Assembly (NCBI RefSeq): GCF_000266885.1
Contig: NC_018020.1
Coordinates: 2,356,001-2,420,000, forward strand
Direction of reading: 5' to 3'
Source of the DNA: Turneriella parva DSM 21527
GTDB lineage: Bacteria > Spirochaetota > Leptospiria > Turneriellales > Turneriellaceae
DNA length: 64,000 nucleotides
Both the position numbers and the translations under genes were made by a program. Below are positions 3,866-43,853 of this stretch, one piece after another. Numbering within the stretch: position 1 is the stretch's first letter; each line of letters begins with the position of its first letter. The notes beneath the pieces were generated by a model, which worked only from the letters and a program-made list of their open reading frames with translations, searched no databases and had not been told where the DNA came from.

Positions 3866-6469
3866 AGTTCACCAGCATCTTTTCGATGAGCGATGCGCGG
3901 TTGGCAGCCCCGACGACGATTTCAAGCGGAAAGCCGAGCGAGAAGAGTCGGTAAGTGCCCGCATAGTGCAGAATCGCGCAGCGCGAGGCCGTGTTATAGA
4001 CCTGCACGCAGGTCGAGCCATTGACTGCTGTGTAATAGTCGGGAAAGAGATTCTGGTAACCACCCGCAAGGCCGTTGTCGAGACTGAATGCAGCGACACC
4101 CGCTAGCGCACCGCTGCCGGCGAGCAGCGTTGAAGTGCCGGCATCATCGCCTGCAAAGCGCGTGCGCAATGTGCTTTCGAGAAACGAAAGATCGTTGCTG
4201 TGCGTGTTGCCGATTGTCTGCGAGGCGAGATCCCACCCGATTTCTGAGCCGGTGGCGATAAGTTTGCCGCCGGCGGCAAGGTACTGCGCGACCAACTGCT
4301 GCTCGGCATAACTGAACGTCTCATCTGACCAGCTTTCGCGGCCGACATACCAGATGACCGCGTCGTAGTCGGCAAGTAAAACAGCGCCCGAGACGACCGC
4401 TTCGTTCGCACAGCTGGCTATAGACCACGGGCGGTTGCTGTCGACAACTGCTTGTGAATACACTGGCGTGTGGTTGAAGTTGTTTCCGCGTTCGACCTGC
4501 GGGCCAACGGCACGCTTGTCGTAGTTAGTCACGAAATTGATGCGGTTGTCGAGCCGGTCAAAGCCGTTGACGATCAGCAGCTTCTTGTCGGCGGCATTGA
4601 CGGGCACGCGCACGCTGGCAACTTCTGAGGCCAGACTCAAGCCATGTTCATTGCCTGCCTGTACCGTGAAATGGTACACTGTGCCCGCAGGGACATTCTG
4701 AAAGGTAGCGCTCGTGGTGCTGGCGATTCTGCCCGAATCGAACGACACGCCGTCTTTTGACGTGCGCACCAGATAATAGGTTGCGGCCGTGCCGGTGGCG
4801 GGGGCCTGCCAGTTCAACGTGAATTCGCCGCTCGCGGTATTGCGCACTCTGAGGCCCGTAATCTCTTCGGGTGAATAGCCCGAGCTAAAAAACTCAGCGA
4901 TGCCCATGTAGATGCCACGCGCTGCGATACGATAGAACTTTTCATTTGAGAGGCTCACGAGTTCGGTCGGGTGCGTAAAGAAGCCCACTTCAATGAGCGC
5001 CGCTGGCACAGAGGCAACGCGCGTTTCGCCGTAGTCGCCGTCGAAGCCGTCATCACCCCAGGTGATGTTTGTCCAGCTTGAATCCCATTTGGCGCGAATG
5101 TGGTCGAGCATGCGGTATTTCACCTTGAGACCCAGGCTGCGGCTGATCTCGTCGAGCGCCTTATAAGTCGAACCTGCCGTTCCGTATTGGTAGATAACCA
5201 TTGTACCCTTTCCCGACGACGAAGAGTAAGGGTAAGTGCCGCTACCGGTGGCGTTGTTGTGCACCGAGATAAAGGCATCGGCAGCCTCATAGTTGGCTGC
5301 GTGCGGCCGCGTCGTCACATCTTCATTGTAACCGCTTGATAGCCTGGCGACAGTCGAGGGGCGCCCAAGAAATTTCTGGTGCTGCCACGCGCTGCTCTTG
5401 TACCGCTCTTCATTCGTTGGCGTGCCGTCGATCGGCAGCGTATCGATGCCGCCGCCGAGTCTCAACGTATCGATTGCGGCGATTTTGTCAGCGGCGAAGT
5501 TATTCTGAAATTCAACGACAGCTGCGGCAGATGTCTTGAAATAATATGTGCCTAGATAAGCGACACGGTAGCGCAGCCCCTGCGAACCATACGCATCGGC
5601 CGCTGTAGCGCGCGACAGCTGGTTCATGTAGGTGCGCGCAGTGCCGCCCGCATGCGTGATCGTCACGGGTATGGCAGATGCCCTGTCGGTGCCGTCGCGG
5701 TAGTGAAAATAAACCGGATACATGCCGCTGACAGGCACAGTCGCCGTGTACGTGAACTTGCCTGTGCCCGTACCGTCGCCATAAACGTAACGGTACTTTG
5801 TACCTGCAACGCAGAGCGACGCCGCCATCGCCGAGTCGTTCGCCGAGGTGTAAAATGTCGCACCCGTCTGCGCATAACCGGCAGCACCGGGGCACACGAC
5901 GACCTGCGGGCGCGTGCGCGCCTGTTCGCGCACGAGTGTCACCTCTGCGCCCGCGTTGCGCAGATACTGCAGCACGTAGTGTGTGATCTCAGAGTTCAGA
6001 TAATCTTCAACGATGGCGAATGCATTTACCGGTGAGGTGGATGCAGAACTATATGCAAAGCCCCCGCTGGACCAAACCCACGGCCGTTGCAGACGTGCAC
6101 CGGCCGATTCGGCGCTCGTGCGCCCGCGCCAGCCATGGCCCGCGCCGAGTGCAATTGTTTTTCCGCGCAGGCCCGCAACCTGCGAAGGAATATACACGCC
6201 CTCTGCGCCGATTCTGTCGGGCACGATGTCGGTGAGTGTCGTCGTTTCAACTGCCGGGCCGCCGGTTTCACCGGTATCACCCGGCGGCGGAGTCGGGGTT
6301 GTGTCGCCACCGCCGCCGCTGTCACCATTGTCGAGCGGTACGCTGCCGTCACCACCCGTACCTGAACTGGCAGGCGCCTTTTCAAGCAACGCCTTATCCA
6401 TATTTTTGCCGCAGGCAACAAAGAAGAAAGCGGCGAGCGAAGCGACTAAGAGTTGTTGCATCAGATTGT

Positions 6470-6473: not shown

Positions 6474-8361
<1,888 letters not shown>

Positions 8362-38399: not shown

Positions 38400-39473
38400 T
38401 CCTCGCAAACCAGTACCCATGCCCTTCGGGCGGGGATGGCAGTCCAGGTAGATACTGAATACTATACCAGGCTTACTGATCAGTTACTGGATGACTTCTA
38501 CCCTAAGTTCTGCTGTAATGAAAGACTGACTGCCGTGGACGGTAAAAGGGAAACCGTGCTCCGGTGCCCCCGTTGTCATAAGCAGGCATCCCGGTTGGCC
38601 GGTACGCCTTTGCATCATTTGAAGTTACCGCGATGGATGTTTGGTTATCTGTTGAAAGAGAACCAGTTACAGTACCCGAAAGTATTGACCTCTACGGAAA
38701 TCAGTAAAAGAGTAGGAGTAAGTATCCCCGCCGCGATCCGGTTAAAGCGTAGATTGCAATTGTTTGCTGCGGATACTCTCCCCCGAATGCAGCGTAAGTT
38801 TTATGAAACCCAGAAGCTCCGGTTTCAGGGCTTCCGGTTTCCTAAAGACAGAGAGACTGATCTGACTCCCCTGATTGCTGATAAGCCAGTACCCCAGGCG
38901 GATACAGTAGTGTTGTACTCCTGCAAAGGTACTGCAAATAAAGGCCGAAAGCGTTATCGCCGCAGCGGACAGACTGCTTCAATTTACCGGAGTGAATCTT
39001 TAGGCGGGGATCAGATCGGGACTCTTGTCCATACAATCGGGACAAAGCAAGGTCCGGTATTCTATGACTCTATCCCCAACCAGAAAGCGGAGACCATCTA
39101 TCCGATTCTGGGTAAATACAATCCCCACCACGGTCCCTTGTTTACTGACATGGGATACCGCGGCTTCCCCAGCATGAATCACCGGATGGTGAATCACTCC
39201 CGCAAGAGTTCTGACAAGAGGTATAAGTGGGCCAGGAATCGGTGGAGTAAGAACGGGGTTCACTGCAACGTCGCGGAGGGTAAGAACGGAATCCTGAAGC
39301 GGTCATTCAGTTCCTATGTCTGGATAAACCCGAAGCACTCTAACCTGTACTTACAGGAATATGCCTTCAATGCCAACCTTAGGCATTTTGACCTGGGGGA
39401 TTTGTTACCGGAAGAGAGTAACCCGAATCCCGCCCCGGTCTATCAGATGGATGACAACTGGGCAATGCGAGGA
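38400..39473 (+). mobile_element. IS1595-like insertion element
   Basis: Imperfect terminal inverted repeats start TCCTCGCA at 38400 and, on the other strand, TCCTCGCA at 39473, each followed by a CCAGT-containing stretch. The element contains one transposase gene. The sequences immediately outside the terminal repeats are not a matching short target duplication; instead a 23-bp repeat lies 15 bp outside on the left and directly adjacent on the right. Ends are therefore approximate. Confidence 0.65.
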
Positions 39474-39527
39474 AGGGTTAGTAAAGTGCTCCCGAAGCAG
39501 GATTCGAACCTGCGACACGGTGATTAA
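38436..39527 (+). CDS. IS1595-family transposase (ISXO2-like)
   Basis: 363 aa. An N-terminal zinc ribbon (FCCNERLTAVDG, LRCPRCHKQASRLAGTPLHH) is followed by an HTH-like region and a DDE domain with LFTDMGYRGFPS and VHCNVAEGKNGILKRSFSSY. The frame leaves the element at its right end and terminates inside the tRNA-Asn gene on the opposite strand, giving a foreign tail (SKVLPKQDSNLRHGD). So the native stop may have been lost on insertion. Confidence 0.85.
   Translation: MAVQVDTEYYTRLTDQLLDDFYPKFCCNERLTAVDGKRETVLRCPRCHKQASRLAGTPLHHLKLPRWMFGYLLKENQLQYPKVLTSTEISKRVGVSIPAAIRLKRRLQLFAADTLPRMQRKFYETQKLRFQGFRFPKDRETDLTPLIADKPVPQADTVVLYSCKGTANKGRKRYRRSGQTASIYRSESLGGDQIGTLVHTIGTKQGPVFYDSIPNQKAETIYPILGKYNPHHGPLFTDMGYRGFPSMNHRMVNHSRKSSDKRYKWARNRWSKNGVHCNVAEGKNGILKRSFSSYVWINPKHSNLYLQEYAFNANLRHFDLGDLLPEESNPNPAPVYQMDDNWAMRGRVSKVLPKQDSNLRHGD
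39474..39496. repeat. 23-bp direct repeat, right copy (overlaps tRNA-Asn 3' end)
   Basis: Identical to 38362-38384; its last 8 bp are the 3' end of the tRNA-Asn gene, so this is the copy attached to the functional gene. Confidence 0.85.
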
Positions 39528-40640: not shown

Positions 40641-40733
40641 CCACCTGCAATGCAGGTTCTGCTGCGCCGTAAAGGAGAATCGGTATCTGCAGCGCAAAAA
40701 TGCGTTGGCGACGCCCGGCCGTTTTGCAGGTGG
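40641..40733. promoter_or_regulatory. Divergent intergenic region with an inverted repeat over both ribosome sites
   Basis: CCACCTGCAA (40641-40650) and TTGCAGGTGG (40724-40733) are perfect complements 73 bp apart. Each arm contains the Shine-Dalgarno sequence of the gene it adjoins (metF to the left, the zinc-ribbon membrane protein to the right). A local hairpin CCTGCA-A-TGCAGG (40644-40656) can also form beside metF, so two structures compete. Confidence 0.55.
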
Positions 40734-40737
40734 TTTC

Positions 40738-42774
40738 ATGCGGTATTTATGGCTGATGATTGCAAGTATGGCTTGCGCTGCTTCTGTTGGGGCCACGGAG
40801 AAGAAGATCGGCGCGGCCAGGGTTCACTTCACCGGCGAGCTGAAAGGCAGTGACCTGCGCATGACCGAAGAGCACGCACTCGATCTCACCGAGGCCTGGC
40901 AGTACCCTGCGCGCACCTACTACCGCAGCTTCCTGGCGGGGCGCTTTCCCTGGTCGCAGGACCTCACCGATTTTCGCGCGAGCGTCGATGGCCAGCCAAT
41001 GAAAACTGATCTCTACCGGTACGGCTACGACAAGGTCATGCTGCGCCTGCCAGCTCTCGCGGCGGGCAACTACCGCCTCAAGGTCAGCTATACAATCCGT
41101 GACATCCGCGGATTTCCCGAGGCAACTCTGCCAGAGCTGCGCTTCTGGGATTACCCTCTGCATATCGAAGAAGTCACTGCTCAGCTTACTGGCTTGCCGC
41201 GGGGCGCAGAGTTCGCGCTGATCGAACGCTACAACCGCGAGCAATTCGCGCAGAAACGCGCCGATGGCATTCAGGCGCTGGCGTACGGTAAAGATCACGA
41301 CACCACGCCATCACCGGTTTTGCTCATCAGCAATAGCGCGCTGCGCTACGATGAGGGCATCGTCGGTTACATGCGCTATTTCGCGCAGCAGAGCAGGTTA
41401 CTGCCATTTGTAGGATTTCTTATTGTTCTGATGCTCTTGCTCCGGTTCATGCCGGCACGCATCGTTCTGGGTTTTATTTCGCTCTACATGTTTATACCAC
41501 TCACCTTCTGGCTCTCGCGCATTCCGGGTTGGCTAAGCTACTTTGCCGCACGCAAAGAAATTGAACCGCGCGCAGAGTACATCGAACACTTCTACGGCGA
41601 GCTGGCGGGCGACATTGCTGTAGCAGCCATCTTGTTCTTGCTGGCACTGCGTGTCGTGCGCGGCATCTGGCGCGGCGAAATCAGCGATTATTACCTGCCT
41701 TACGGCGGCCTCGTGAGCTTTTTGGTGCTACTGCTCTTCATGGGGCAGGACCCCGAGGCCTTGCTGATGCTGCCGCTCGCAGCACTTTTTCCGCTGATGT
41801 ATTCAGGCAAACAGGTCACGCGTTTCTTCGGTGCCGATGCGCACGTGTGGATCGAAAAGGTTATCTCGGTCGGCAAGATGAGTTTCGATGAACTGAGCCA
41901 GGCTTCAGGACTTGCGGTTACGCGACTCAACCGTATCTTTGCCGCTCTGCCCACGCACCCGGTTGCGATCGATCATGACAACCGACAGTACCTTTCGGCT
42001 GATGCGCTGGCGGCGCTCGAGCAAAACCAATTTTGCAACAACTGCGGAGGTACTCTCAAGGTTGAACACAGCGACCTTCTACAGTGTCCGTATTGCCGCA
42101 GCGATTACGCCGTGGCGCTCGGAAAAAAATCCAAAGCAAAAAACACTCCGCCGCTGGTCGTGAGTACGCTGGCAAATTTTCTCAAGGCAAGCGGAATCAT
42201 GCTCATGATTGTGTTTGTCTTTCTCGCAGCCTTCGGTGCCATCACCGAACTTTATGCGCGTATGCATCGCAAGGGTGGCACCAGCGGCGACTGGGCAGTG
42301 GTCATCACCATTGCCATTCTGGGTGGCGCGGCGTATGGTGGCTTTGCCGCACTCGCGACCCGGCTGCTTTCCGGTAAGGGTTACGCCCTGGTTTCGGCGG
42401 TGCTTGCAACTCTCGCCCCTCTCGTCTGGCCCATCTTTGCGCTGCGCGCGCTGATGTCGCCGCGCAGCAAATTCTTTTTCGGGCAGTTGGATTTAGCCCG
42501 CATACGCGAGTGGCTTGCAGAAAAAAAGTACATCCCCCTTACTGAATTTGCCCGCCGGCTGCGCGCGAGCGAACTCGATGCAATGAACCTCGCGCATTAC
42601 CTCACGTCCTCGGGTGAGCTCGACGCGGTTTACGACCGGCGCAACAACACGCTGACAGAACGCTCGCTCTTTCGTGCCAAGGCCGGCGCCAATTCATGCC
42701 AATCTTGCGGGGGAGTGGTCTCGGTGCTGAACGGTGCCCGCGTTTGCCGGTATTGTGGAACCAAGGCCACGTAA
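40738..42774 (+). CDS. Exported/membrane protein with two zinc ribbons (DUF2207-like N-terminus)
   Basis: 678 aa from the ATG at 40738, five bases after AGGTGG. A signal peptide (MRYLWLMIASMACAASVGA) leads to a beta-rich domain (VMLRLPALAAGNYRLKVSYT) like DUF2207. Several membrane segments follow (about 220-260, 290-315, 320-350, then near 485-510 and 530-580). Zinc ribbons FCNNCGGTLKV...LQCPYCRSDY lie near residue 430-455, and a second, CQSCGGVVSVLNGARVCRYC, is at the C-terminus. No known function. Confidence 0.65.
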   Translation: MRYLWLMIASMACAASVGATEKKIGAARVHFTGELKGSDLRMTEEHALDLTEAWQYPARTYYRSFLAGRFPWSQDLTDFRASVDGQPMKTDLYRYGYDKVMLRLPALAAGNYRLKVSYTIRDIRGFPEATLPELRFWDYPLHIEEVTAQLTGLPRGAEFALIERYNREQFAQKRADGIQALAYGKDHDTTPSPVLLISNSALRYDEGIVGYMRYFAQQSRLLPFVGFLIVLMLLLRFMPARIVLGFISLYMFIPLTFWLSRIPGWLSYFAARKEIEPRAEYIEHFYGELAGDIAVAAILFLLALRVVRGIWRGEISDYYLPYGGLVSFLVLLLFMGQDPEALLMLPLAALFPLMYSGKQVTRFFGADAHVWIEKVISVGKMSFDELSQASGLAVTRLNRIFAALPTHPVAIDHDNRQYLSADALAALEQNQFCNNCGGTLKVEHSDLLQCPYCRSDYAVALGKKSKAKNTPPLVVSTLANFLKASGIMLMIVFVFLAAFGAITELYARMHRKGGTSGDWAVVITIAILGGAAYGGFAALATRLLSGKGYALVSAVLATLAPLVWPIFALRALMSPRSKFFFGQLDLARIREWLAEKKYIPLTEFARRLRASELDAMNLAHYLTSSGELDAVYDRRNNTLTERSLFRAKAGANSCQSCGGVVSVLNGARVCRYCGTKAT

Positions 42775-42796
42775 GGGTAAATGCCTTCGCCTAACA

Positions 42797-43096
42797 GGCT
42801 CCTGAAAAAGGAGCCAAAAGCAGGTTCCGGAAACCGAACAAGGCTGCAGACAGGCCATATATGGCCGTTTTGCGAGCGATTTCGGTACGAAATCGCGGCG
42901 TCTGCGCCGGCCTTCGGCCGGGCAACGCCCGGTCAGGGAGTATTTCCGGAACCTGCTAAGCCGACAGCCGGGAACCCGCAGCGGCTGTCGTCGGTCAATA
43001 AGATGTTAACCAAATGGTTAAAAACTGTTCTACGGGGTGTCTAGCCAACCAGCTGCGGTAACGCGTGGCTGTGAGTTTCCATAGCTGCTATGGAAA
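42797..43096. other. Densely structured intergenic segment
   Basis: The 368-bp gap from 42775 to 43142 has no convincing gene but many perfect hairpins. These are GGCTCC/GGAGCC (42797-42815); a 14-bp outer pair GCAGGTTCCGGAAA (42820-42833) with 42943-42956; palindrome GGCCATATATGGCC (42853-42866); GCGATTTCG/CGAAATCGC (42876-42896); overlapping alternatives CCGGCC/GGCCGG (42907-42921) and CCGGGC/GCCCGG (42918-42932); CGACAGCCG/CGGCTGTCG (42962-42990); and a 21-bp palindrome TTTCCATAGC/GCTATGGAAA (43076-43096). It could be an untranslated leader RNA of the ABC operon or a mobile palindromic element. Confidence 0.75.
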
Positions 43097-43142
43097 TCCG
43101 TAGCAGTGCGAGAAATCCGCCGCACCGCCGCAAAGGAGAACT

Positions 43143-43853
43143 ATGCATATCATCTCGATGACCAACGTTCGCAAAGATTACCCGCTCGGCGAAACCACGG
43201 TCAGCGCGCTCAAGGGTGTTAACTTCGCGGTCGAGGCGGGTGACCTGCTCTCGGTGGTGGGGCCCTCGGGTAGCGGCAAGACGACTCTGCTCAACATCAT
43301 CGGCTGTATCGACCGCCCGACGAGCGGCAAGGTTTCAATTGCAGGCCAGGACATCACGACGATGAGCGACGATGCGCTCACCGACCTGCGCCTTTACACG
43401 GTCGGGTTTATTTTCCAGACGTTCAACCTGATCCCGGTGCTCGATGTGCTCGAGAACGTGGAGTTCCCGATGCTGCTGATGAAAGATAACAAGTTCTCGA
43501 AAGCTGAAATCAAAGAGCGTGCCGAGCACCTGATCGAAGAGGTGGGCCTGACCGCACAGCTGAAGCAGCGCCCGGCGGAGCTCTCGGGTGGGCAGCGGCA
43601 GCGCGTCGCGATTGCGCGTGCGCTCGTGACCAACCCCAAGATCGTGCTCGCCGACGAGCCGACGGCCAACCTCGATTCAGACACGGGCCACAAGATTCTC
43701 GAACTGATGCGCCGACTGAATGAACAGCATAAGACGACGTTTGTATTCTCGACGCACGACCCCGACGTGCTGCAGTATGCTCGCCATGTTGTAAAAATTC
43801 GTGACGGGCTTGTCGTGGCCGACAAGCCCGTCACGAAAAAAAGAAAAAAATGA
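43143..43853 (+). CDS. ABC transporter ATPase, LolD/MacB type
   Basis: 236 aa. Walker A VVGPSGSGKTTLLNIIG, the family-typical DLRLYTVGFIFQTFNLIPVL Q-loop, signature LSGGQRQRVAIARAL, Walker B KIVLADEPTANLDS, and H-loop FVFSTHDPDVLQYA. It powers the two FtsX-type permeases encoded next. Strong ribosome site AAAGGAGAA. The stop overlaps the permease start (ATGA), and the end of the gene is a long hairpin. Confidence 0.95.
   Translation: MHIISMTNVRKDYPLGETTVSALKGVNFAVEAGDLLSVVGPSGSGKTTLLNIIGCIDRPTSGKVSIAGQDITTMSDDALTDLRLYTVGFIFQTFNLIPVLDVLENVEFPMLLMKDNKFSKAEIKERAEHLIEEVGLTAQLKQRPAELSGGQRQRVAIARALVTNPKIVLADEPTANLDSDTGHKILELMRRLNEQHKTTFVFSTHDPDVLQYARHVVKIRDGLVVADKPVTKKRKK
43798..43837. other. 18-bp-arm hairpin at the end of the ATPase gene
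   Basis: TTCGTGACGGGCTTGTCG (43798-43815) and its exact complement (43820-43837) around a TGGC loop, followed by an A-rich stretch and the next start codon at 43850. It encodes IRDGLVVADKPVTK at the ATPase C-terminus. Confidence 0.85.

Follow-up and report, generated by a model that had tools for sequence, protein, structure and literature searches.

Between a gene for a 689-residue protein and an operon that opens with a LolD-like ABC ATPase gene, the chromosome of Turneriella parva DSM 21527 carries some 300 nucleotides unusually rich in perfect stems. Is this stretch a leader RNA with alternative folds that serves the envelope-export operon, or is it palindromic DNA that arrived there from elsewhere? 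We address this question in the 64,000-nucleotide window that contains it (contig NC_018020.1, positions 2,356,001 to 2,420,000 of the forward strand), using the numbering of the window throughout. It is likely that the feature is a landed, non-coding and non-autonomous MITE/REP-like repeat of about 167 bp, moving as DNA and found in the genus Turneriella and one near relative. The stretch before the lipoprotein-export operon is probably, for the most part, a copy of this repeat and not the operon's own switch.

The strong structure claimed for 42797-43096 in an earlier note was borne out. On the + strand the interval folds at -146.1, against a mean of -105.2 for shuffled sequences (sd 5.4, n=200; z -7.5), and on the - strand z is -6.8. 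It is also, as had been proposed, more structured than nearby gaps: among the 13 spacers of the window of at least 100 nt, taken over their first 300 nt each with 40 shuffles, it gave the lowest value (z -7.7; next -4.7 and -4.6). The perfect stems 42876-42884/42888-42896, 42962-42970/42982-42990 and 43076-43085/43087-43096 are present, the predicted fold adds 42797-42803/42809-42815 and an AGGCC...GGCC hairpin, and the mutually exclusive GC-rich stems 42907-42921 and 42918-42932 are evident from the sequence itself. The outer pair exists as well, not with the 14 bp first given but as 15 nt that are 100% complementary. The idea of a single 300-bp element did not hold: the interval is a composite of four parts, namely the repeat, a small hairpin, an operator-like palindrome and a set of short dispersed palindromes (Table 1). 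The last of these, of the CTATGGNNNNCCATAG type, was found at 18 genome sites against 0 for a reversed control, the imperfect window copy at 43085-43106 not being counted; its loci include L004, L009, L227 and L228, and at least one copy (L009) lies, by eye, apparently inside a protein gene.

Table 1. Features of the repeat copy and of its surroundings, in window coordinates
Feature	Position	Strand	Basis
Upstream gene, 689 aa; stop 42772-42774	40705-42774	+	ORF
Whole repeat, unit A hairpin and unit B three-way-junction element, left TA to right TA	42792-42958	+	
Unit A hairpin, GGCTCCT-gaaaa-AGGAGCC	42797-42815	+	fold; BLAST
5' arm of the outer stem (P0) of unit B	42819-42833	+	
P1 5' arm, GCAGAC; partner GTCTGC at 42900-42905	42846-42851	+	sequence; alignment with L176
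P2 hairpin, GGCC-atatat-GGCC	42853-42866	+	sequence; fold
Junction segment CGTTTTGCGAG; family consensus CGCTTTAGCAG	42866-42876	+	
P3 hairpin; differs from L176 in two base pairs, each changed on both sides	42876-42896	+	
GC-rich insert of 21 nt, missing from the closest relative (L176); overlaps the mutually exclusive stems	42905-42925	+	
3' arm of the outer stem (P0); right TA at 42957-42958	42943-42957	+	
Separate hairpin CGACAGCCG/CGGCTGTCG	42962-42990	none	perfect stem, outside the repeat
Operator-like palindrome TTAACCAAATGGTTAA	43006-43021	none	16 bp
Two overlapping CTATGG...CCATAG-type palindromes, 43076-43096 and imperfect 43085-43106	43076-43106	none	
LolD-like ABC ATPase, first gene of the operon	43143-43853	+	Pfam PF00005

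When 42775-43142 was compared with its own genome, its left part recurred at other places, several of which share one plan: a leading hairpin (unit A) followed by a unit B that combines a long outer stem with inner hairpins. With a canonical copy as query, BLAST returned 59 matches at E<=1 from the T. parva genome, a number that includes both strands of some single places. We then used a covariance model, R1, built from 17 unit B copies of this genome without the window copy. At E<=1e-3 it detected at least 45 distinct places, a figure that includes the 17 training copies; the search returned 72 rows at E<=10 and scored 150 of 2944 candidates, so that 45 is a lower bound. The copies are dispersed chromosome-wide.

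Pairing is kept in this family while the arms change. Among 62 copies aligned to R1, 95.4% of 2201 cells were paired against 35-46% with the partners slid, and 34 of 38 pairs showed changes on both sides; over all 115 rows, opposite-strand rows included, the corresponding values were 94.8%, 35-50% and 36 of 38, both alignments being fitted to the tested structure, with which the matches had also been found, a circumstance that favours it. The helices counted were P0, P1, P3 and a 2-bp mini-helix, while P2, which varies in length, was left uncounted and is visible in single folds. The 62 copies were retained from 87 sources after dropping 25 that were weak or degraded, were one of each shared pair or matched on the opposite strand as well (L071, L072, L077, L098, L108-L112, L114-L117, the window copy L001, L151, L152, L154, L160, L162, L163, L166-L168, L182 and L188). 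Their unit B consensus starts with GCAGGC and covers about 120 positions, with the near-invariant junction bases GC-AGC ... GCGCTTTAGCAG ... CGAG-GC. The architecture comprises an optional hairpin A, a closed P0, a 3' bulge, a P1 of 16-17 bp and a three-way junction with side hairpins P2 and P3. In 56 divergent copies that were folded and inspected by eye, the arms were wholly replaced in many and still paired, and a few copies looked degraded (e.g. L116, L117, L163 and L182). The outer arms pair as terminal inverted repeats in canonical copies, and their sequence is not conserved in divergent ones. In L154 (1609-1765), the sister orthologue of L086, a 30-nt insertion splits the core between GCTTTA and GCAG. 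Rfam covariance models run on the window and 9 copy-bearing loci returned only tRNA, tmRNA and weak chance matches, and the literature searched yielded no mention of these Turneriella repeats.

Is the window copy itself a member of this family? Its unit A and the start of its unit B have BLAST matches elsewhere in the genome (E 4e-7 and 3e-5), and its outer stem and end, GGGAGT-TTTCCGGAA-CTGCTAA, agree with the family. A copy in the sister genome G002 (L176), itself recovered by R1 at 51.5 bits, is identical to it at 125 of 149 aligned letters. Compared with L176, the 60 pairs predicted in the window copy comprise 41 that are the same, 1 changed on one side, 3 changed on both sides, 5 broken and 10 unaligned; the unaligned pairs involve the insert 42905-42925 and the broken ones lie among the GC-rich bases directly 3' of it. 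R1 scored the window copy weakly (E 0.7 genome-wide), and within the window gave it 19.5 bits, less than the 21.5 bits of a non-family stretch at 7786-7911; the copy was not recovered at E<=0.01 in the R1 search that collected the 115 rows from 87 sources. With R2, a second model built from the 62 copies and hence trained on a set that includes L176, the closest relative, the window copy ranks first in the window (E 0.002; next 0.42) with a fit that covers only 42825-42923. The covariance models alone do not prove membership. Judged by its letters, with unit A, P0 and the likeness to L176 as grounds, the window copy can be assigned to a divergent subfamily together with L176.

The search in related genomes found a family nearly restricted to one genus. 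Among 41 genomes, R1 at E<=1e-3 found it in T. parva, in 6/6 other members of the genus, in 1/6 other genomes of the family and in 0/28 beyond; among 296 genomes of the phylum, R2 at E<=1e-5 found it in 7/7 genomes of the genus, in 1/6 other genomes of the family (5 matches) and in 0/283 others, both searches having used stricter filters under which weak copies may be missed. A scan for the unit A pattern across genomes gave 7 stretches; the one that was read, in a Spirochaetota MAG (L065), is a true copy, and the other six are probably chance matches.

Mobility was tested by joining the flanks of 14 T. parva copies without the element and searching for them in six sister genomes. Colinear empty sites were found in G003 for four copies (L097, L077, L089 and L084), with the gene stopping at the same codon; the stop contexts at these sites are CTC-TAA, CGC-TAA, TTT-TGA and GAT-TAG. 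Two further copies (L074 and L073) align in G003 with extra unrelated bases, and less similar empty sites occur in G002 for L081, L077 and L084. At L087, G003 has a short variant of the element, and in G002 and G001 the position of the gene's stop codon is unchanged, as seen in left-side alignments only. Both flanks of L072 match a single G003 contig, where 43 nt more separate them than in the joined query. For L071, L075, L078, L083 and L085, no junction-spanning site was found in the six sister genomes. The window copy is without a clean empty site because the gene upstream of it has no match in any of the six other genomes of the genus; the product of that gene shows a weak, below-cutoff match to a zinc ribbon. 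Like a MITE, the repeat is short and non-autonomous, occurs in many copies and has empty sites in sister genomes. As regards the ends, a right-side TA was present in 7/14 of the copies listed, and the left ends had been located by a pattern that contains TA.

Not all sites differ between genomes. Five are occupied in both T. parva and G003, and a nucleotide search of 49 T. parva loci against 57 other loci, some of them overlapping, gave 4 shared sites (L080/L152, L086/L154, L100/L160 and L109/L162). At 4/4 shared sites compared, identity is 90-98% for units A and B against 77-94% for the flanks, with gaps ignored (31 gap columns in unit B for the L086 pair and 23 for the L109 pair). On average over these four sites the element is better conserved than its flanks, which suggests a kept function. 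The copies move, yet old copies look constrained.

The copies are placed at gene ends. Neighbouring genes were called with a simple codon-usage gene caller, and a stop was taken as abutting when it lay at most 48 nt before unit B or at most 15 nt after it. An abutting stop was found in 33/48 T. parva copies with both flanks called (49 given), 11 of them with stops on both sides, and in 15/32 copies from other genomes (36 given); by these criteria, 15/48 and 17/32 copies, respectively, have none. Exact coincidence of the stop with the end of the element was seen on the unit A (left) side in 10/33 cases (9 with a second caller) against 2.1 expected, and on the right side in 7/31 (five TAG, one TAA and one TGA) against 2.0 expected, the expectation being a rough one from uniform placement in the spacer. 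The neighbours are convergent for 22/49 copies, against 9/50 gene pairs in the window. The window copy is not at a stop codon; 17 nt separate it from the one that ends the upstream gene. In 3/49 T. parva loci the element lies within about 40 nt of a tRNA gene, in one case between two tRNA genes. Copies close to tRNA genes are L103 (1501-1585, between tRNA-His and tRNA-Leu in a tRNA run), L109, L114, L184 and L188; one of these, in a sister genome, lies between tmRNA and tRNA-Phe. Such positions argue against a strong terminator there.

We looked for a partner that could mobilise the family. A PF01797 search detected three Y1_Tnp genes in the genome (L068, L069 and L070), each flanked by perfect palindromes of its own whose sequence is unlike the repeat family, and it is on those other palindromes that R1 scores highest at each locus (24, 18 and 15 bits). 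A near copy of the L068 palindrome adjoins an RND pump gene in L223. Composite transposons were considered for three stretches with inverted copies and rejected, since the genes read there appear by eye to be ordinary host genes; in L219, by eye, a transposase-like ORF (4083-5081) lies between the second and third copies along with several host-like genes. Among the three Y1_Tnp loci and the three inverted-copy stretches, no insertion sequence or transposase could be tied to the family. The window has an ORF at 38436-39527 (363 aa) whose product looks like an IS1595-type transposase.

The closest known systems can be likened to the Turneriella repeat by description only. The TA-flanked MITEs RUP, ERIC/RU-1 and Correia/NEMIS are repeats of about 100-200 bp that form stem-loops and end in TA (PMC2229807). 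The Turneriella repeat is like them in size, repetition, stem-loops and TA at its termini. It differs in that conservation is highest at its centre, the three-way junction, with variable arms, and in having the right TA in only half of the copies listed. YPAL/RU-2 of Yersinia, which it resembles in general features, is palindromic and about 168 bp long, has targets that span or adjoin dyad symmetry, with empty and filled sites, ends without TA and makes target duplications of 3-26 bp (PMC2229807). GTAG REPs are hairpins of 20-40 bp with a GTAG tag, palindromic, often supplying a TAG stop with their ends and favouring convergent and unidirectional spacers (PMC3733652). The Turneriella repeats share with them the palindromic nature, the ends that supply stops and the convergent spacers, and the supply of a stop by such an element is thus not new (PMC3733652). 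Unlike GTAG REPs, they measure about 100-170 bp and have a three-way junction, and the resident Y1 genes go with other palindromes. The consensus of the family is not a 20-40 bp GTAG-tagged hairpin, and its copies do not flank the Y1_Tnp genes at the three loci.

These results bear on several other explanations. A REP/BIME-like element moved by resident Y1 transposases of the REP-associated type would draw on the three Y1_Tnp genes of the genome and on the known ability of GTAG REP termini to supply stop codons (PMC3733652); a RAYT mobiliser was nevertheless rejected after the three loci had been rescored with R1 and their flanks read. Each locus has its own palindromes, which makes the resident enzymes poor candidates, and we rate the explanation as very unlikely. 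The preferred explanation of a mobile repeat is weakened by the low scores of the window copy in the models, its position past a stop codon instead of on one, its want of a clean empty site, the partial occurrence of the right TA, the many copies without abutting stop, the five sites occupied in both genomes, the higher conservation of the element than of the flanks at the four sites compared and the lack of a transposase tied to the family. A rival explanation is a class of functional structured RNA with a conserved three-way junction, such as a 3' UTR element, a processing or stability element or even a ribozyme, selected at gene ends and only occasionally copied. The near-invariant junction nucleotides on one strand, the strong covariation of the stems and the conservation at the 4/4 shared sites speak for it, as does the position of the stop on the unit A side in 17/22 T. 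parva copies with a one-sided stop, a bias that the unequal search windows favour. Both orientations occur, however, relative to codirectional genes (11 ++, 9 --), sister genomes have empty sites, one copy (L103) lies within a run of tRNA genes and Rfam offers no relevant match, so that such an RNA seems unlikely to us. Pairing might instead be kept by DNA repair, with template switching perfecting palindromes and no use made of the structure. By eye, the 3' arm of the unit A hairpin in L094 and L099 repeats the last part of the adjacent gene as its reverse complement, and unit B of L073 occupies the centre of a palindrome that the flanks form. In L073 (1501-1632), unit B stands alone at the central TA of this flank palindrome, GAATGAGTGTT-TA-AACACTCATTC. 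Template switching leaves the near-invariant unpaired junction bases and the constant architecture unexplained, and we think it quite improbable.

That the interval acts in cis as a leader RNA or riboswitch of the LolD-like operon is suggested by its location upstream and by the two mutually exclusive stems. These alternative stems overlap the insert that L176 lacks, and the other copies are spread over the whole chromosome; many copies unrelated to the operon had been named in advance as the outcome that would count against a leader. At four lolD orthologues that were read in sister genomes (L141-L144), the region of the gene start is in common and the element is missing from all, which disfavours the leader reading. 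R2 run without filters gave no better than E 0.3 at six sister lolD loci, these four and two more distant ones (next 0.98; one short stretch of L144), against E 0.0007 at the T. parva locus. A scan found no sigma-70 promoter in 42760-43160, and one terminator-like site turned up against 0.6 expected. Of the two possibilities raised at the outset, the mobile palindromic element has gained support from the dispersed copies, the empty sites and the near one-genus range, while the leader has not, and we now give the latter hardly any credence.

Another part of the interval is a better candidate for control of the operon. The palindrome TTAACC-N4-GGTTAA at 43006-43021 is retained upstream of lolD in 3/4 of the orthologous loci read. 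In the T. parva genome, TTAACC-N4-GGTTAA / TTAACCNNNNGGTTAA has 6 sites, against 1 for a reversed control. They lie at or before genes for a TetR-family protein (its gene in L224), an outer membrane efflux protein, an AcrB-type (RND) pump, a LolA-like protein, a TonB-receptor-like protein (called by eye) and lolD (window 43006-43021, L222, L223, L224, L226 and L030). From its sequence, the site looks like a TetR operator, and the simplest reading of the six sites is probably an autoregulated TetR regulon for envelope export. The repeat copy having landed before this probable control site, lolD is probably controlled by the site and not by the structure of the repeat.

For the mobile repeat, the observations at gene ends suggest how a gene could tolerate insertion. 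TA plus a purine at the end of the element often reads as the stop codon of the neighbour. Insertion would take place at or beside TA, and as the element starts with a purine (RCAGG), insertion at a stop codon would rebuild TAA or TAG; the gene would survive because the first purine of the element regenerates its stop. An enzyme acting in trans and reading the folded strand or the junction could leave the sequences of the arms free to drift with pairing kept. The window copy would have landed 17 nt past the stop of the upstream gene, ahead of the probable control site of the operon. More speculatively, and with considerable doubt, the family could represent a new class of structure-defined mobile element, in which machinery or a ribozyme-like activity recognises the folded, near-invariant junction, the arms are free as long as they pair and insertion at gene ends rebuilds the stop.

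Small bacterial repeats of the MITE kind usually conserve their ends and vary in the middle. In the Turneriella family the pattern is inverted: the junction is fixed, and the arms are free but mostly paired. The family is thus well suited for testing whether mobile DNA can be recognised through its structure, or whether an undescribed RNA is involved. It further illustrates how a parasite of about 160 bp can occupy stop codons while doing the gene little harm. As to the operon, interest moves away from the hairpins and towards the operator-like site of 16 bp, which may run a regulon for envelope export.
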